From the NCBI GenBank assembly GCA_028290905.1, contig JAQGIW010000055.1, forward strand, positions 1 to 49,563: a DNA stretch of 49,563 bases, given 5' to 3'. The notes under the pieces were generated by a model. The model made no database searches. It was given only the letters and a program-made list of their open reading frames with translations, and had not been told where the DNA came from. Below are positions 32,833 through 41,617 of the stretch, in pieces. A program made the translations under genes and the position numbers. The stretch comes from Caulobacteraceae bacterium (GTDB taxonomy: Bacteria > Pseudomonadota > Alphaproteobacteria > Caulobacterales > Caulobacteraceae). Position 1 is the stretch's first letter. Every line of letters begins with the position of its first letter.

Positions 32833-33053
32833 CCGGCCGCGACGCCGACCCGCCGAGGCTGCTCACGCGCGCCTTCTGGGCGATGATGGCCTTGGCCGTC
32901 CTGAGCTTTCTGGCCGCGGCGGCGGTGATGGTGGCGTTCGGCTCGCGCCACGTGGCCGCCGGGCCCGGACCAGCCGCCCGCTCCGCGCCCTTGGCGGAAG
33001 GATCAAGGGGCGCTAAGACGGCCCCGCCCCAATCCTCACTTGGGCCGCCTTAG
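32829..33053 (+). CDS. Small single-pass membrane protein downstream of hemD
   Basis: 74 residues starting at an ATGA overlap with the hemD stop. There is one strong transmembrane helix (AMMALAVLSFLAAAAVMVAF, about 19-38), then a Pro/Ala/Gly-rich tail. In many alphaproteobacteria hemD is followed by a long hemX/mitofilin-like membrane protein. This could be a very short counterpart or remnant, but no similarity proves it. Its stop codon lies inside the tRNA-Thr gene. Confidence 0.65.
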   Translation: MTGRDADPPRLLTRAFWAMMALAVLSFLAAAAVMVAFGSRHVAAGPGPAARSAPLAEGSRGAKTAPPQSSLGPP

Positions 33054-33119
33054 CTCAGCCGGTAGAGCGGCGCATTCGTAATGCGTAGGTCGGGTGTTCG
33101 AGTCACCCAGGCGGCACCA
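33044..33119 (+). tRNA. tRNA-Thr(CGT)
   Basis: A full cloverleaf is visible. The acceptor stem is GCCGCCT/AGGCGGC. The D-arm is GCTCAGCCGGTAGAGC. The anticodon loop TTCGTAA has anticodon CGT, reading ACG. The T-arm is GGGTG-TTCGAGT-CACCC. The discriminator A and CCA are encoded, ending at 33119. Its first ten bases contain the TAG stop of the preceding small ORF. Confidence 0.96.
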
Positions 33120-34962: not shown

Positions 34963-35358
34963 TCAGCGGTGACCGTGCTCGTGGTCGCCGCCATGGCGGC
35001 CGCCTTCGTGACCACGCCACCCGCCCTCGTGTCCATGCCAGTCGCCGCGACCGTAGTGGCCACCGCGCCACTCCCGGCCGCCACGCCACCCGTGCCATCC
35101 GTATGGCCCGCCCCAGCCGTATCCGCGCCGCCAGGGGTTTCCGCACCAGTACCAGCCGGGACCATGCCAGCCGCCGTCATACCAGCAGTAGTTGCGACCG
35201 GCCCAGACGAATTGCACAGGGTCCAGCGCCGGGCGGTCGGAAGCCCTGTCGACACCGAAGATGAGTCCTGTCTGAGGCAGGGGCTGAGCCTGCGCGACCA
35301 CGGCGGAGGAGCCAACGAGGGAGGTCGCGAGGGCAAGGGCGACTAGGGGTTTAGACAT
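34963..35358 (-). CDS. Secreted Gly/His/Trp-rich protein
   Basis: About 131 residues. The signal peptide is SKPLVALALATSLVGSSAVV, with cleavage near AQA. A middle segment reads FVWAGRNYCWYDGGWHGPGW with two Cys (CWYDGG, YWCGNPW). A tail of about 55 residues is rich in Gly, His, Arg and Trp (WRGGHYGRGDWHGHEGG). The W-x-x-G-W-type repeats are common in exported proteins of Proteobacteria; metal binding is plausible from the His content but unproven. A start at 35373 is also possible. It is convergent with the EEP gene. Confidence 0.75.
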   Translation of the reverse strand: MSKPLVALALATSLVGSSAVVAQAQPLPQTGLIFGVDRASDRPALDPVQFVWAGRNYCWYDGGWHGPGWYWCGNPWRRGYGWGGPYGWHGWRGGREWRGGHYGRGDWHGHEGGWRGHEGGRHGGDHEHGHR

Positions 35359-35547
35359 GTTCCGATTTTCCATCTGAGTTTAGACAGGCGTCGGGTCGGG
35401 CGGAGTTCTTTCGCGCTTGGGATTCCCCCCGCGGAAATACCGCGCATCTCCGATGGCTCGACACGGACGGCGCGAGATTAATCGGGCCACCTGAACCGTT
35501 CCTGAACGAATCGTTCGGGCTTTAACAACGAGGGCGGGCCCAATCCC

Positions 35548-35658
35548 GTGGCCGTGCAGAACAGCCCCTACGGCGCCGGGCCGCTCGCATTCGTGAAGGT
35601 GCTGGAGGCCTGGCGGTCGGCCGGCGGCATGTCCGGCCTGGAGATTCGGCGGGATTAA
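35548..35658 (+). CDS. Possible 36-aa small protein
   Basis: A GTG-initiated frame encodes MAVQNSPYGAGPLAFVKVLE, then AWRSAGGMSGLEIRRD and stop. Third positions are GC-rich, as in real genes here, although the surrounding 330 bp are otherwise non-coding. The ribosome site is poor (GAGGGCGGG about 10 bases upstream). It may be a small protein, or the end of a decayed gene. No family is recognised. Confidence 0.3.
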   Translation: MAVQNSPYGAGPLAFVKVLEAWRSAGGMSGLEIRRD

Positions 35659-35705
35659 GGCGAGCGCCCTTTCCGGCGGGCCCTCCTCGACGCTATAACA
35701 CGGCC

Positions 35706-36902
35706 ATGGCCATGTCACTTTTTCACGTAGATAACGCAGGCGCCCTCAATCCTCTTCGCGAGACGCCCTATGGCTCGGACGAGGAATTGCAGTTGCTGAT
35801 CGCCGAGCACCCGTCCCTGCTCGGAGGCGATCCCGACGCCGCCGGCGGCTGGTTCGCGCTCGCGCGCAGGGGGCCGTTGCCCGACGGCGCCACCCGCTCG
35901 CCACGCTGGTCGGTGGAACACCTGTTCCTGTCCCAGGATGCAACGCCGACGGTGGTGGAGACGCTGCGCTCGGGCGATCCCCGCGCCCACGGCGACCTGT
36001 TCGGTCAGATCCTCTATTATGCGGCCAACGCCGCGCTCTGGTGGCCCCGCGACGCCCTGAAGGCCGCGTTCGCGGCCGACCACCTGTCGCCGGGAGTCGC
36101 GGAGGGCGAGGCGCTCGCGCGCGTCGTCGGACCGGGTCCCAGCCCGGAGTCTTTCTGGGATCAGGTGGAGGCTGGTCTGGCCGCCGGCCGGATCCGGATG
36201 GTGCTGGTGGTCGACGAGGTCCAGGCCGAGCTCGCCCGGATGGTGGACTTCCTGAATGCGCAGTTGCGCGACGCCGAGGTCTGGGTCCTTGAGGTCAGGC
36301 AACTGGCGGGCCCGTCCGGGCGGCTGCTCCAGACCGACATTGTCGGACGCCGCGGCGATGTCCCGGCGACGAAGTCCGTCAAGAAGGCGCCCGCTGCGAG
36401 GGCGGCGAGTCGGGCGGAGGCCACGCCGCCGGCCAGCCCCGCGCGCACGGACGCCGCGTCCCGCGAGGCCTGGGTTTCCTCTCTGCGCGCGCGGTGCGAC
36501 GAGCAGGAGGCCGTCGTGCTGGACGATCTGCTGCGCTGGATGAGCGAGCAATACGGCGCCACGTCCGTCAACAGCGCGCCGCCCGCCACCTTCAGGCTGG
36601 CGGTCAAGGAAGGCGGCAAGGACCGATACCCGTTCGGCGTGACCGAGACCAAGGCGGCCGCCATTCACCTGGGATCCCTGTCGGCGACCCGCGCCTATGA
36701 GGGCGAGGAGGCGCGCCGGGGCCTGATCCATGAGATCGCCGCCACCGGCCTTCCGATTTCCGAGGTCGATCTGAAGGGCGACCTGCGGATACCCCTGAAG
36801 GACCTCGCCACGCCCGCCGTGCGCACCCAGGTGCTGGCGGTCCTCGACGGCGTCATCGAAACCCTGCGCTTGAAGGAAGCGCCGAGCGCCTACCTGTCCT
36901 GA
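35706..36902 (+). CDS. Hypothetical protein with degenerate PD-(D/E)XK-like N-terminal domain
   Basis: 398 residues. The N-terminal 130 residues follow the pattern of restriction-like nuclease domains: ELQLLIAEHPSLLGGD, WSVEHLFLSQDATPTVVETL, RSGDPRAHGDLFGQILYYAA. Relatives as I recall them have D-x-L before the strand and E-V-K-R after it. Here these read EHL and ETLRS, so the metal-binding Asp and catalytic Lys are replaced and the domain is probably inactive. An Ala/Pro/Lys linker (about 225-250) leads to a C-terminal domain (LDDLLRWMSEQYGATSVN onward). It is followed 7 bp later by an alpha/beta hydrolase gene. Confidence 0.75.
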   Translation: MAMSLFHVDNAGALNPLRETPYGSDEELQLLIAEHPSLLGGDPDAAGGWFALARRGPLPDGATRSPRWSVEHLFLSQDATPTVVETLRSGDPRAHGDLFGQILYYAANAALWWPRDALKAAFAADHLSPGVAEGEALARVVGPGPSPESFWDQVEAGLAAGRIRMVLVVDEVQAELARMVDFLNAQLRDAEVWVLEVRQLAGPSGRLLQTDIVGRRGDVPATKSVKKAPAARAASRAEATPPASPARTDAASREAWVSSLRARCDEQEAVVLDDLLRWMSEQYGATSVNSAPPATFRLAVKEGGKDRYPFGVTETKAAAIHLGSLSATRAYEGEEARRGLIHEIAATGLPISEVDLKGDLRIPLKDLATPAVRTQVLAVLDGVIETLRLKEAPSAYLS

Positions 36903-36909
36903 GGCGCCC

Positions 36910-37797
36910 ATGACGCAGGAAGGTTTCGAAACCGGCCTCGGGCCGACCTCGCACAGCTACATGTCGCAGCGCCTGAGGCTGCATTATGTGGATTGGGGCA
37001 ACGCCTCCGCGCCGCCGCTGATCCTCCTCCATGGCGGACGCGACCATTGCCGGAACTGGGACTGGGTGGCCCGCGCCCTGCGGCGCGACTGGCACGTGAT
37101 CGCGCCCGACCTGCGCGGTCACGGCGATTCAGCCTATTCGCCCAGCGGCGACTATTCGATGTCGGCCTTCGTCTACGATCTGGCCCAACTGATCCACGGC
37201 CAGCATCTGGCCCCGGTGCGCATCGTCGCCCATTCGCTCGGCGGCAATATCGCCCTGCGCTACGCCGGATTGTATCCCGACTTGGTCAGCCGGCTGGTCG
37301 CCATCGAGGGCATGGGCCCCTCTCCCGCGATGCAGGCCAAACGGGCCGACACTCCGGTCGCCGAGCGCCTCGCCCGCTGGATCGAGGAGCAGCGCGCCGT
37401 CGCCGGGCGTCTGCCCCGCCGGTACGCCTCGATCGACGAGGCCCTGGCCCGAATGCAGGCGGAGAACGCGCATCTCACACCGGAGCAGGCGCGCTACCTC
37501 ACCGTCCACGGCGTCAGCCAGAACGAGGACGGGACCTACAGCTGGAAGTTCGACAACTATGTGCGCGGCTTTCCGCCGGTAGACCTGACAGTCGACGAGC
37601 AGCACAGCCTGTGGTCGCGCATCGCCTGTCCCACCCTGCTCGTCTACGGCAAGGAAAGCTGGGCCTCCAATCCCGAGGAGGACGGTCGCATCCGGCACTT
37701 CGCCAATGCGCGCGTGATCAGCTTCGAGCGCGCCGGGCACTGGGTGCACCACGACCGGCTGGACGCCTTTCTGGACGCCTTGAACGGCTTCCTCTGA
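36910..37797 (+). CDS. Alpha/beta-fold hydrolase
   Basis: Serine hydrolase of 295 residues. It has ILLHGGRDHCRNWDWVARAL (oxyanion region), APDLRGHGDSAYSPSGDY, nucleophile elbow AHSLGGN, and the catalytic His in RAGHWVHHDRLD. The acid is probably in YGKESWASNPEEDGR, which departs from the common G-x-x-D pattern. Relatives include haloalkane dehalogenase-like and epoxide-hydrolase-like enzymes. Tight spacing to the preceding gene suggests co-transcription. Confidence 0.88.
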   Translation: MTQEGFETGLGPTSHSYMSQRLRLHYVDWGNASAPPLILLHGGRDHCRNWDWVARALRRDWHVIAPDLRGHGDSAYSPSGDYSMSAFVYDLAQLIHGQHLAPVRIVAHSLGGNIALRYAGLYPDLVSRLVAIEGMGPSPAMQAKRADTPVAERLARWIEEQRAVAGRLPRRYASIDEALARMQAENAHLTPEQARYLTVHGVSQNEDGTYSWKFDNYVRGFPPVDLTVDEQHSLWSRIACPTLLVYGKESWASNPEEDGRIRHFANARVISFERAGHWVHHDRLDAFLDALNGFL

Positions 37798-37899
37798 CGG
37801 CGGCGGGCGGCCTATGGAACAGGTGGCGGCGCCGCCCGGTTGTTCCATTGTCGAGGCTGGCCAGAAAAGGACCGTGGCGTCGATGAAGGCGACCCGCGC

Positions 37900-39165
37900 G
37901 TGGCTGTATTGACGGCTCCACTCTCGCACGCGGCGCGCCCGGAAGCTGTGCGCCGCCGGGATCTGGCCCGCATGCGCCGGCTGGCCACGGGGCTGCTGCT
38001 GCTGATGACGGCGGTCTACGTCGCCACCCGCGTGGCCCCCGCCGCCTGGACCTGGACCGCCTATGTGCAGGCCTTCGCCGAGGCCGGCATGGTGGGGGCC
38101 TGCGCGGATTGGTTCGCGGTCACCGCCCTGTTCCGCCGTCCCATGGGCCTGCCCATACCCCACACCGGCATCATACCGCGCAACAAGGATCGGATCGGTG
38201 AAGCGCTGGGAGACTTCATCGCCAACAACTTCCTGACCCCCGCGGTCCTCGACGCCCGCCTTCGGCGGCTCGAGCCCGCCCGCCGTCTGGCCGACTGGCT
38301 TGTCACCGGTGACCACGCCCAGGTGCTGGCGGCGCGCGTGGCCGCCGTCCTGCCCGATATGATCGGCGCCGGGGCCGAGCTGCGCGGTCTTGCCGGCGAA
38401 CTCGTCCGCCGCGCGGCCCGATCGCGCCCCGTCGCGCCCCTGGCGGGACGCCTACTGGGGTGGCTGTGGCGCGAGCCCGCCGTCCAGCGCCTGGTGACCC
38501 GGGCCATCCACCGCCTGGCGGACTTGGGCCTGGAGCACGAGGCCTTCATCCAGTCTCGAATCGCCGGGGAGACCTGGAAATGGCTGCCCAAGTGGGTCGA
38601 CAGGTTCCTTGCCGAGAAGTTCACCCGGGATCTTCTGCGCGCTGCAAACGAGCTCCGCGATCCCGAACATCCCTGGCGCCGCGAACTGGATGCGGCAGTG
38701 GAAGATTTCATACGGCGTCTGGCCGAGGACCCCGAATTCCTGGCTCGGGGTGAGGCCATGCGCGACCAGCTTCTCGCCGACCCGGCCCTCGGCCGCCGCC
38801 TGGAAGGGCTGTGGGCCGAATTGGCCGAACGTCTCGCCGCCGACCCCGGCGCGCGCGGCGCGCTCATTGCCGAGGCCCTCGCCCGCGGCCTGCGCGGACT
38901 GGGCGCCTGGCTCGCGGAGGACCCCGCCGCCCGCGACCGGCTCGATCGCTGGATCAGGGTGGCGGCGCGCCGCACCCTCTCGTCCCAACGCCAGGCGATC
39001 GGCGGTTTCGTCGCCCAGGTCGTTGCGGGCTGGGACGCCGGGGAGGTCACCGACCGGCTGGAACTTCAGGTCGGACGGGACCTTCAATACATCCGTATCA
39101 ACGGCACGCTCGTGGGCGGGCTGGTCGGGCTGGCGATCTTTGCGGTCTCGCGGTGGCTGTCTTGA
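37900..39165 (+). CDS. DUF445 family membrane protein (YjiN-like)
   Basis: 421 residues from GTG 37900; the frame is open to a TTG at 37840 without similarity. One N-terminal helix (LATGLLLLMTAVYVATRVAP) and one at the very C-terminus (LVGGLVGLAIFAVSRWL) bracket a long helical soluble region. The family signature AGMVGACADWFAVTALFRRP, PHTGIIPRNKDRIGEALGDF and IANNFLTP is clear. The C-terminus has DLQYIRINGTLVGGLVG. The role is unknown; it is probably anchored in the inner membrane. Confidence 0.9.
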   Translation: MAVLTAPLSHAARPEAVRRRDLARMRRLATGLLLLMTAVYVATRVAPAAWTWTAYVQAFAEAGMVGACADWFAVTALFRRPMGLPIPHTGIIPRNKDRIGEALGDFIANNFLTPAVLDARLRRLEPARRLADWLVTGDHAQVLAARVAAVLPDMIGAGAELRGLAGELVRRAARSRPVAPLAGRLLGWLWREPAVQRLVTRAIHRLADLGLEHEAFIQSRIAGETWKWLPKWVDRFLAEKFTRDLLRAANELRDPEHPWRRELDAAVEDFIRRLAEDPEFLARGEAMRDQLLADPALGRRLEGLWAELAERLAADPGARGALIAEALARGLRGLGAWLAEDPAARDRLDRWIRVAARRTLSSQRQAIGGFVAQVVAGWDAGEVTDRLELQVGRDLQYIRINGTLVGGLVGLAIFAVSRWLS

Positions 39166-39175
39166 GGTCGCCGAC

Positions 39176-41617
39176 TCAGGTCTCGATGGCGAGGGGCGGC
39201 GCCTGCAACAGCTTCTGATCCTCTCCGCGCGACGACGGCCGCTCGCAATCCTCGCTCTCCTCGCTCGGGCAGAGGGGCAAGGTCACGGTGAACACCGTCC
39301 CCCGGCCCTTTTCGCTGCGCCAGTCGATGACGCCGTCATGGCGGTGCACGACGGTCTGAACCATCGCCAGGCCCATTCCCAATCGCACGCCGCTCCCTGG
39401 GTCAGGCATGGCGTCATCGTTGTCGCCCAGAAGGGGGGGTCTCGCGAACGGGTCGAAAAGACCCCGCTGCTGCTCGGCCGTCATGCCGTCGGACTGGTCG
39501 GTGATGGAGCAGCACACCGCAGGGCGGTCGCGTAGCCGCGTCTCGGCCAGGATGCACGTTACGCGGGCCGCGGGCGGACTGAATTTGACGGCGTTGTCCA
39601 GCAGGTTGATCAGCGCTCGCGCCATCAGGCCGCGATCGGCGTCGACCACGAACTCCCGCTCGGGATCCTCGACGACGATCTCGACCGACGCCGCGCGCGC
39701 GATCGACCACAGCGCATCGGCCGCATCGCCAAGCAGGTGGAAGAGGTCGATCGGCGCAAAGGTGTAGTATTCGGGGCTTTCGGCCTGGGCCAGCCGCACG
39801 AAGCCTTCGGCCAGGGCCACGGTGCGCATGGCGTTTCTGGAGATCCGGTCCCGCAGCTCCTGGGGGACGGATTGGAAGTCTTCATGCTCCAGGGCCGCCA
39901 GGATAGCCGACTGGGGGGCGCGCATGTCATGCGTGAAGAGCTGGAGCGCTTCCTCGCGCTGACGCATGGCCGACACCTGCGCCGTGACGTCCGCCAGGTG
40001 CACCGTCCATCCCTTTACTTCACCGGCGTCCTCCTGTCCGGTAGCCGCGTAGCGGGCTTCGAGGATGCGGCCGCCTGGGGCGACGCCACGCGGCGCCACG
40101 ACGCCTGGACCCGTGTTCGGCGGCCACAGGCTGCACCGGTTTCCGGCGGCGTCGGCGAGATCCTGCAGAATCGGCTGGACGTAGGCGCCGGGGTCCGTCG
40201 GTCGGCCCAGCTTCTGCGCCAGGTCGACCGCGGCCTGATTGTACATCAGGACACGGCCGCGAGACGTCACCACCATGACCGGGTCCGAAAAGTTGGCCAG
40301 GACGTCGGTGACGAAGCGACGGAGCTCGCGGATGCGGCGCTTGGTTTCGTCGATCAGGATCATCTGCCGGGTCACGCTGTCACCCATCGGAAGGCCGCGT
40401 TCGCCGGGGACCGGCAGGATCGCGCCGCCGGAGCGGATCTGCAACTCGGCCAACTCGCGGGCGAAATAGTCGCTGGCGGCCTGCAGCCGCCTGGAAGACC
40501 AGACGATCTGCACGATGGTCCGGACGATCACGATCGACATCGGCGGGAACCAGACGCCCGTCAGGATGAGAGCCCCGGCGGAGCCCAGCAGGACCGCGAG
40601 GCTGCCGATGGGCTGGAGCGCGAACTGAGTGGGTTTCAGCCAGAGCAGTTCGAAGAACGTCACCCACAGCAGGATCAGCGACAGGACGACCGTGGCCGTG
40701 GGCGGCAGCGCCCGCACCAGATGATGGTGGAGAACAGCGTCGAGCGTGTTGGCTTCGATCTCCACGCTGGACATCCCGTCGGCCCCCGAGACCGGCGTAG
40801 GATAGTTGTCGAGCAGACCCGGCGCGGTCGGTCCCACCAGGACATACCTGTCCCTGAACCGCCCGGGCTGGACCAGTCCATGCAGGACGTCAGCGGCCGA
40901 CACGCGGTCGAAGTGGCCGGGCGGCCCAGCGAATGGAATGAGAACTTCACCTCGCTTGGCGACCGTGTTCTCATGCGCGGGCGACAAGGTCCGCGCGGCG
41001 CCGCCCCGGGATTGGCCCGCGGCCAGCACCGCCACGTCGGGGAGCTCTCGACCGTTGTAGGACCCGTAAAGGACGGCGCGGCGCACGATGCCATCGAGGT
41101 CGGGGGTAGGGTTGCTGAGGCCCACCCCGGCGGCGACCGACGCGATCGCGGCGATCGGCTTGATGAGGTGGGCCCCGATTCCCCGCCCAGGATCGTCGAG
41201 CGCCTCGGGAAGGAACACAGGCGCGGCGGCGACGGCGGCGTGCAGCGCCGCGTCTCCCGCCGGCGAGCCTTTGGTGGCCACCAGAAACTGAAAGACCACC
41301 GCCCGGGGGTGGCCCCGGGCGACCGTGTCGAGAATGGCGGCGAGGGTTTCGCGCGGCCAGGGCCACGGCCCCAGCTTGGTCATGCTCGGAAAATCTATGC
41401 CGACGATGACGATGTCCGGCGGCGCCGGCCGGTGCCTGAACTTCAGGGCGAAGTCATAGATGGCATTGTCGAGCCGCGTCGTCGCGCCCGCGAAAACCAG
41501 TCCGCCGATCAGCAGCGTTCCGGCCAGAAGCAGCGCCGACCATTCCACCAGGAGCCAGCCCCGGGCCCTGAAGATCGGCGCTGCTGGCGGGTGCTCGTCG
41601 CGCCGCGGGTCCGGCAT
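39176..41617 (-). CDS. CHASE2-domain sensor histidine kinase
   Basis: 813-residue inner-membrane kinase. A helix (about 23-45) precedes the extracytoplasmic CHASE2 domain (IVIVGIDFPSMTKLGPWPWP to about 300), then three helices (PTATVVLSLILLWVTFFELL onward). A PAS-like segment has FSDPVMVVTSRGRVLMYNQA. The H-box is LQLFTHDMRAPQSAILA with phospho-acceptor H563, and the N-box is LINLLDNAVKFSP. The G1 box reads SITDQSDGM, where DxGxGM is usual; the last glycine box is VRLGMGLAMVQTVV. It ends with an acidic tail. Its partner regulator lies 16 bp upstream in the same operon. Confidence 0.93.
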   Translation of the reverse strand: MPDPRRDEHPPAAPIFRARGWLLVEWSALLLAGTLLIGGLVFAGATTRLDNAIYDFALKFRHRPAPPDIVIVGIDFPSMTKLGPWPWPRETLAAILDTVARGHPRAVVFQFLVATKGSPAGDAALHAAVAAAPVFLPEALDDPGRGIGAHLIKPIAAIASVAAGVGLSNPTPDLDGIVRRAVLYGSYNGRELPDVAVLAAGQSRGGAARTLSPAHENTVAKRGEVLIPFAGPPGHFDRVSAADVLHGLVQPGRFRDRYVLVGPTAPGLLDNYPTPVSGADGMSSVEIEANTLDAVLHHHLVRALPPTATVVLSLILLWVTFFELLWLKPTQFALQPIGSLAVLLGSAGALILTGVWFPPMSIVIVRTIVQIVWSSRRLQAASDYFARELAELQIRSGGAILPVPGERGLPMGDSVTRQMILIDETKRRIRELRRFVTDVLANFSDPVMVVTSRGRVLMYNQAAVDLAQKLGRPTDPGAYVQPILQDLADAAGNRCSLWPPNTGPGVVAPRGVAPGGRILEARYAATGQEDAGEVKGWTVHLADVTAQVSAMRQREEALQLFTHDMRAPQSAILAALEHEDFQSVPQELRDRISRNAMRTVALAEGFVRLAQAESPEYYTFAPIDLFHLLGDAADALWSIARAASVEIVVEDPEREFVVDADRGLMARALINLLDNAVKFSPPAARVTCILAETRLRDRPAVCCSITDQSDGMTAEQQRGLFDPFARPPLLGDNDDAMPDPGSGVRLGMGLAMVQTVVHRHDGVIDWRSEKGRGTVFTVTLPLCPSEESEDCERPSSRGEDQKLLQAPPLAIET

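Follow-up and report, generated by a model that had tools for sequence, protein, structure and literature searches.

The window, that is, the whole stretch of 49,563 nt analysed here, contains on its forward strand an ORF of 398 aa (positions 35706-36902, ATG start, stop codon included) that encodes a putative pseudonuclease. Both motifs quoted in an earlier note on this DNA, one of them GQILYYAANAA, were found in this ORF, which is single copy in its genome (an assembly of 317 contigs and 5.2 Mb). Its orthologue in a congeneric genome, G451, is 62% identical in the N-terminal part and 68% in the C-terminal part. The product comprises a PD-(D/E)XK domain of NucS/EndoMS-like fold (residues 20-215; 35763-36350), an Ala/Pro-rich linker predicted to be disordered (residues 216-246; 36351-36443) and a C-terminal alpha/beta domain (residues 247-398; 36444-36899). 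The last nine residues are a tail (KEAPxAxL) common to the window and G451 proteins and missing from the eight intact relatives compared.

An ORF of 398 codons also lies on the opposite strand (35715-36911), antisense to the pseudonuclease gene. This antisense ORF looks like a coincidence of high-GC DNA: in a comparison with the orthologue, most changes fall on third positions of the forward frame (55/45/109 by codon position in 215 codons). The window protein gave no meaningful match in Pfam, NCBIfam, PADLOC or PHROGs, and the single Pfam line obtained (E 0.19) was put down to chance. Nothing relevant was retrieved from PDB chain sequences with this protein and two profiles, nor was there any match to the window protein in a phage collection.

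The last 45 codons and stop of a monooxygenase gene (35521-35658, forward strand) end 47 nt ahead of the pseudonuclease gene; this remnant is 75.6% identical over 45 aa to G451 by tblastn (E 1e-17), and we take it to be of the Baeyer-Villiger type from reading the G451 and G466 proteins. An alpha/beta hydrolase gene (36910-37797, forward strand) follows after a gap of just 7 nt in the window and 8 nt in G451, suggesting that the two genes are co-transcribed. A simple scan of positions 35350-37900 found no sigma-70-type promoter. The sequence GCTATAA (35692-35698, forward strand), 7 nt before the start codon, is conserved in both pseudonuclease genes, its second occurrence being upstream of the start in L015; it resembles a -10 element near the start and could point to a leaderless message. 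A tRNA-Thr (CGT) gene at 33044-33119 (forward strand), ca. 2.6 kb upstream of the pseudonuclease gene, is a possible integration site. Downstream, a gene for a DUF445 protein (37840-39165) adjoins one for a CHASE2 sensor histidine kinase (39176-41617, reverse strand), and four further congeneric genomes also have a DUF445 gene near the hydrolase gene.

The orthologue was found in two of the 16 genomes of the genus, the window's and G451, and G491, in which a contig ends within the hydrolase gene, gave only a distant sister-family match. The G451 copy is spread over two contig ends, the pieces of which overlap by the same seven residues; assembled from these contigs, the order is monooxygenase, pseudonuclease and hydrolase genes. 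Since the monooxygenase remnant and the hydrolase gene flank the pseudonuclease gene in the window as in G451, both genomes carry it at one shared ancestral site. This site is empty in G466, where 102 nt separate the monooxygenase and hydrolase genes and nothing lies between them, and in G427 a different gene, on the other strand, lies upstream of the hydrolase gene; by reading of its sequence, this is presumably an aldehyde-dehydrogenase-like frame. Close orthologues of the hydrolase (at least 68% identity, two of them partial) occur in 14 of the 16 congeneric genomes, the window's included, and their tree groups the window genome (G000) with G451 and G491 (support 0.90), with G466 and G427 just outside. 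A single gain in the G000/G451/G491 clade would fit, and loss elsewhere is possible. Five profile matches at E <= 1e-20 were obtained among 390 genomes of the bacterial family, namely the window gene, G451, G461 and G1325, the last two with intact motifs, and a G508 fragment that does not cover the motif; no further copy with a lost active site was found in these 390 genomes.

Fold and domain arrangement

The AlphaFold2 model of the window protein, built on a 78-row alignment with 77 relatives, has a mean pLDDT of 86.6 and a pTM of 0.57. Because of this pTM, and because pLDDT falls below 50 across residues 219-247, each domain is considered well modelled singly, and their mutual placement is not. 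By model and structural alignment, the protein contains the restriction-endonuclease-like core of the PD-(D/E)XK superfamily. The earlier note had predicted such a fold, joined by a flexible linker to another domain, and had named as contrary evidence a structure prediction lacking it; no such result was seen. The strand-strand-helix core was modelled at the predicted place (strands 69-76 and 81-87, helix 92-112), the match to the NucS/EndoMS nuclease domain has a Z of about 10, and the low-confidence residues 216-246 do lead into a C-terminal domain.

With VIA-align, residues ca. 20-201 of the model were superposed on the nuclease domain of NucS (2vld; Z 10.1, 2.5 A over 108 residues) and of EndoMS (5gke; Z 10.0, 3.1 A over 113 residues), with lower scores for the same domain against XisH (8.4), SduA of Shedu (7.6), FokI (7.5) and HamA of Hachiman (7.5). 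EndoMS was also the best match in a Foldseek search against the PDB alone, with a non-significant E of 9.3e-3, none being at or below 1e-3. The likeness to NucS/EndoMS (PF01939) is one of nuclease domain fold. In the family studied here, this domain is N-terminal and followed by a different one, and the NucS N-terminal DNA-binding/dimerisation domain is missing: model residues 24-200 align with 2vld residues 126-233, with no room ahead. The window protein, whose catalytic residues are gone, matched neither PF01939 nor the NCBIfam NucS models; PF01939 matched one of the 78 family rows (E 0.0037), and the NCBIfam models one row each (2.7e-4 and 0.0024). In the available text of PMC7736090, Ala mutants of SisEndoMS residues D159, E173 and K175 are called catalytic-deficient, and the D-x13-E-x-K spacing of these residues is that of D71, E85 and K87 in the intact relatives.

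For the C-terminal domain, structural matches were obtained to 9t2w, a YdhG-like protein (Z 7.9), to 1kaf and 5jlt, structures of the MotA C-terminal domain (Z 6.2 and 6.0), and to the DUF419 protein DR2400 (2a1v, Z 5.8), values in the range where the tool warns of a merely common arrangement. The modelled domain thus bears at most a weak resemblance to the YdhG-like/YjbR and MotA C-terminal folds, and we leave it unassigned.

The family and its active site

The family lacks a Pfam model. The Uma2 model PF05685, which we take to be COG4636, matches one of 78 family rows (E 5.6e-5). The relatives match the PADLOC phage-defence candidate PDC-S11 (PDLC04916, PDLC04915): PDLC04916 reaches every one of the 77 searched (E <= 0.001; best 6.4e-18), with the match in the N-terminal domain in the five relatives whose ranges were examined. 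Unlike them, the window protein gives nothing in PADLOC at E <= 1 and, by the test of this model, is a diverged relative of PDC-S11 rather than a member. The available parts of the literature merely list PDC-S11 among defence candidates and describe no mechanism, and our literature search, made largely without subscription papers, found no functional account of the family or of its members with lost active sites.

A first contig scan with the window protein alone as query found no relative, and a profile of eight intact relatives identified at least 471 in genome contigs of bacteria and archaea, of which the best 80 were examined. Among these best 80 of at least 471, the aligned motif is D...ExK except in four cyanobacterial rows and one uncovered row, its commonest form being WSxDHLFxDQDxxPTLVEVKRSxDTRxRREVVGQMLDYAAN. 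The profile scan was biased to intact genes, given that one of its patterns held D71 and the other D or E at 104, so that the window itself would match neither; no pattern included E85 or K87. Among the tallied rows, the 29 from pattern-free searches of whole genomes or plasmids, with the window protein or a profile, all have D71, E85 and K87.

The full tally covers 104 distinct relatives among the matches listed, distant sister families included. The earlier note had asked whether homologues with an intact E-x-K exist, and these proved plentiful: D71, E85 and K87 are all kept in 100 of the 104. By column, K87 and R95 are present in 104, R96 in 103, and D71 and E85 in 100 each; Q101 and Y105 are invariant. 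The four exceptions at D71 and E85 constitute one cyanobacterial group (L100, L105, L117 and L127). The tally omits L088, L099 and L138, whose frames (240-266 aa) are shorter than the match and of which the first two read intact at the motif, the region being uncovered in L138. Also omitted were L019 (motif uncovered), the window copies L001, L027 and L057, L059 (a copy of L005), and L007, L009, L025, L026, L064 and L066, without a match to L011; the L007 frame has an intact D...ExK. Relatives L004 and L010, both in genome G197, are nearly identical over their shared part, one being cut at the N terminus and the other at the C terminus, as if recombined or interrupted.

Several intact relatives lie in defence or mobile settings, as observed at individual loci. 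L011 (6001-7128 in NZ_CP023066.1, a Sinorhizobium plasmid; annotated as hypothetical) is the neighbour of brxL, the last gene of a BREX-1 cluster that opens with DUF1819 and DUF1788 genes and continues with brxC, pglX and pglZ. A Shinella relative is 10 nt downstream of hsdM-hsdS-hsdR, hsdM genes are near L101 and L123, and a Magnetospirillum relative has a SIR2-domain gene 20 nt upstream. Six relatives occur in viral contigs, all with D...ExK. The 65 named relatives with long flanks have no general partner gene; hsdM-type genes, which form one cluster, are near five of these 65, with L072, L101 and L123 confirmed by Pfam.

Loss of the catalytic centre

The PD-(D/E)XK signature, D...(D/E)xK, is incomplete in both the window protein and its G451 orthologue. 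As the earlier note claimed, the window has Glu for the metal-binding Asp at residue 71 (35916-35918) and Leu for the catalytic Lys at residue 87 (35964-35966), positions with D in 100 and K in 104 of the 104 relatives among the matches listed. Beyond that note, the Glu of ExK is still present at residue 85 (35958-35960), residues 95-96 are HG instead of the conserved RR (35988-35993), and in QILYY (residues 101-105; 36006-36020) the Q and Y of QxxxY are retained and D104 is replaced by Y. The G451 protein has D71, Q85, L87, L95, G96 and Y104. The two proteins thus share K87L, R96G and D104Y and have both changed R95 as well as D76 (S76 in the window, A76 in G451); D76 varies in sister families and was not counted as catalytic. 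As to whether the substitutions are conserved, the two known members of the lineage share the loss: K87L, R96G and D104Y are found in both orthologues, and E71 is absent from G451, which has D71.

The changes are concentrated at the active site rather than a by-product of divergence. The window is off consensus in 19 of 54 conserved columns and the N-terminal part of G451 in 18, each with six of the seven active-site columns (D76 among the seven). This contrasts with 14 distant sister-family proteins that are more divergent (23-28 of the 54 columns off consensus) and still keep D71, E85, K87, R95 and R96, with two D104E. In addition, a catalytic Lys that had migrated is unlikely in the window, because the only Lys of its first 215 residues is at 119, with none in 1-118; the Lys of G451 near the active site (55, 77 and 92) are not shared with the window. 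The net charge of the N-terminal domain of the window, -12, is the same as the median for 85 relatives (four cyanobacterial rows with lost triads among them), and an argument from surface charge for or against DNA binding was discarded, as the two degenerate domains do not stand out.

The shared loss of K87, R95, R96 and D104 indicates that inactivation predates the split of the window and G451 lineages. Different members of the triad went on eroding after the split (D71E in the window, E85Q in G451), as expected if catalysis were irrelevant. In a quick-method tree, the two proteins are sisters with a support of 100 and group with the Sinorhizobium and Shinella relatives and two more alphaproteobacterial proteins with a support of 99.

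As the window and G451 genes had already suffered the shared losses when they split, their divergence accumulated after inactivation. NG86 estimates of dN/dS for this pair were 0.23 for residues 1-215 (0.15-0.35 in 200 bootstraps), 0.34 for residues 60-115 (0.15-0.64), and 0.24 for the C-terminal domain (0.15-0.36), compared with 0.14 (0.09-0.20) for the hydrolase gene next to it; all are approximate because dS was 0.67-1.18. Both domains have been under purifying selection after the loss, less tightly than the hydrolase, and by these estimates the window gene does not behave as a decaying pseudogene.

The cyanobacterial exceptions were explored in a sample of 194 genomes of one order, searched at E <= 1e-60 with the L105 protein, a query that is itself without an intact triad and a threshold that omits more distant copies. 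A match was found in 71 genomes, and all 71 (L166-L236) were examined at the triad positions: 24 have D, E and K, another 14 differ solely by D/E or K/R exchanges (DDR in seven, DER in three, EEK in three and EDR in one), which may leave activity when E to D or K to R, and in 33 the loss is clear, with replacements such as A, T, S, N or Q for E, Q, C or V for K, and N or A for D. Six of the 24 intact rows are outside the main cyanobacterial clade, within which D, E and K are present in 18 of 65. A FastTree tree requires 10 losses, eight when branches with support below 0.9 are collapsed most favourably, and six at 0.99, counts that assume an intact ancestral state and exclude regain.

Departure from consensus in the 65 clade rows was ranked over 46 columns, each with a conservation of 95% or more among 68 relatives from outside the cyanobacteria. 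E85 ranked second (54% changed), K87 fourth (42%) and D71 eighth (31%); the chance of three given columns all being in the top eight of 46 is 0.004 for random ranks, relatedness ignored. Column 98 (V to I, M or L) ranked first and R96 third, and 13 of the 46 columns never change. These include W113, W151, E181-F182-L183-N184, E196, G214 and W278; the never-changing columns are all kept in the window except for E181, which is Asp, and they likely mark a working surface.

Seven groups with lost triads gave dN/dS values of 0.03-0.23 (at most six pairs per group), a D,D,R group 0.11-0.16, and four groups with the triad intact 0.02-0.24; with such similar ranges, the cyanobacterial genes with lost triads are about as constrained as the live ones. 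Flanks were covered for the 30 loci with the best scores among the 71, and dapF lies within 1.5 kb in every one of these. PMC7464499, consulted for a phenotype of the cyanobacterial gene, concerns a VRR-NUC protein in its available text. The cyanobacterial triad loss is an independent parallel to that of the window and G451.

A proposed function without cleavage and its alternatives

These data make it likely that the window gene codes for a pseudonuclease, inactivated at its catalytic centre in the ancestor that the window and G451 copies share and since kept by selection for a function independent of cleavage. Two features of a pseudoenzyme are present, catalytic residues lost where the relatives keep them and purifying selection after the loss. 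This interpretation is limited by there being two such orthologues in the lineage, by dS near 1, by the upper bound of 0.64 for residues 60-115 and by a constraint below that of the hydrolase. In the proposed sequence of events, a two-domain protein of an uncharacterised NucS/EndoMS-like PD-(D/E)XK family would have lost its catalytic centre before the window/G451 split, and selection would since have kept it for work that involves no DNA cleavage. The protein would function by binding, holding a partner, be it a protein or a nucleic-acid structure, instead of cutting it. The binding surface would most likely be the part invariant in degenerate and live members (around 181-196, W113, W151 and G214) together with the C-terminal domain, and the protein would probably be made with the hydrolase from one message, given the 7-nt gap. 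For both the alphaproteobacterial and the cyanobacterial cases, the plainest account would be that the protein does more than cut, and that the chromosome keeps that part.

The kind of partner is a separate matter. Because R95 and R96, basic and near the active site, are lost in both degenerate proteins and the charge of the N-terminal domain equals the median of the relatives, nothing in the sequence favours DNA over protein. Searches of the window and G451 genomes, both incomplete assemblies, found no second family member, so that no partner to regulate or neutralise is in sight. Consequently, of the earlier note's proposal, the catalytically inactive nuclease with a role other than cleavage stands, with residues lost and constraint kept, but its suggestion of DNA-binding, sensor or immunity functions does not gain support. 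On present evidence our order of preference begins with a scaffold for nucleic acids or proteins, continues with regulation of the hydrolase or immunity, and ends with a pseudogene or an active nuclease.

A sequence-specific DNA-binding regulator of its own locus, i.e., of the hydrolase gene, would explain the tight linkage in both carriers (7 and 8 nt) and agree with the weak similarity of the C-terminal domain to the DNA-binding MotA C-terminal domain (1kaf and 5jlt). However, close orthologues of the hydrolase are in 14 of the 16 genomes and the putative regulator in two, the MotA Z values of 6.2 and 6.0 are in the range of a possibly common arrangement, both domains are net negative, and a general role would also have to explain the dapF-linked cyanobacterial copies; we therefore consider this function unlikely. 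Slightly less likely still is an immunity or dominant-negative protein that pairs with, and poisons, intact family nucleases brought in by plasmids, phages or defence islands. In its favour, such settings are where the nearest intact relatives occur (the Sinorhizobium plasmid by BREX-1 and Shinella after hsdM-hsdS-hsdR), the six viral-contig relatives all have D...ExK, and NucS/EndoMS forms dimers, as stated in the available text of PMC7736090. Nevertheless, those nearest relatives are only ca. 35% identical, making hetero-dimers unlikely, and the search for a second family member in the two carrier genomes, like that for any member in the phage collection, found none.

A decaying pseudogene, in which the whole gene is unneeded and the frame remains open merely because GC-rich DNA has few stops, would agree with the long chance ORFs of the window, the antisense one of 398 codons included, with the presence of the gene in only two of 16 genomes and an empty site in one congener, and with the decay of the upstream monooxygenase gene to a remnant. 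It is nonetheless improbable: along a branch wholly posterior to inactivation, dN/dS is 0.23 and 0.24 (upper limits 0.35 and 0.36), the two parts align with G451 at 62% and 68% with no internal stop, and the window retains the scaffold residues W113, W151, F182-N184, E196, G214 and W278. The least probable option, by a little, is that of a nuclease with a rearranged centre, in which Glu71 stands for Asp, E85 is kept and another residue serves as the Lys. The change from Asp to Glu is mild and the window does keep E85, and the available text of PMC551604 describes a migrated catalytic Lys in COG4636/DUF820 (Uma2), a mainly cyanobacterial PD-(D/E)XK group of putative nucleases with a non-canonical active site. 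In COG4636, however, the site is thought to be complete, whereas in the window the residues are lost with no evident substitute: there is no Lys in 1-118, Lys 55, 77 and 92 of G451 are not shared, the orthologue has Q85, and R95, R96 and D104 are lost in both proteins.

The preferred reading of a selected pseudonuclease can be extended, at a little less than even odds, to the family as a whole. All members would have an old function independent of cleavage, with the nuclease as an optional activity used in defence settings; permanent uptake into the chromosome, beside dapF in cyanobacteria or beside the hydrolase gene in the alphaproteobacterial genus, would lead to repeated shedding of the active site while the surface remained fixed. 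What is now a candidate defence nuclease would then be a binding protein that has been domesticated. The repeated loss across the wider family raises the importance of the single window protein, since a phage-defence candidate family would have shed its presumed effector activity several times with the protein still under selection. This predicts that part of the biology of the family is independent of cleavage and warns against naming such genes nucleases or defence genes by homology alone. Natural catalytic mutants and their live sister genes within one order provide material for finding the second function.

If an old non-cleavage function exists, the family would parallel in bacteria the way in which pseudonucleases arose repeatedly among fungal Ssd1/Dis3L2 proteins, for which the available text of PMC8097288 describes repeated loss of the active site with a retained, nuclease-independent function; these are eukaryotic proteins of the RNase II family with known RNA binding, and no homology is claimed. 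A second likeness is to Wolbachia CidB/CinB, whose PD-(D/E)XK pseudonuclease domains keep the fold without the catalytic residues, although there are several such domains per protein and the biological setting is another, according to the available text of PMC12687446.
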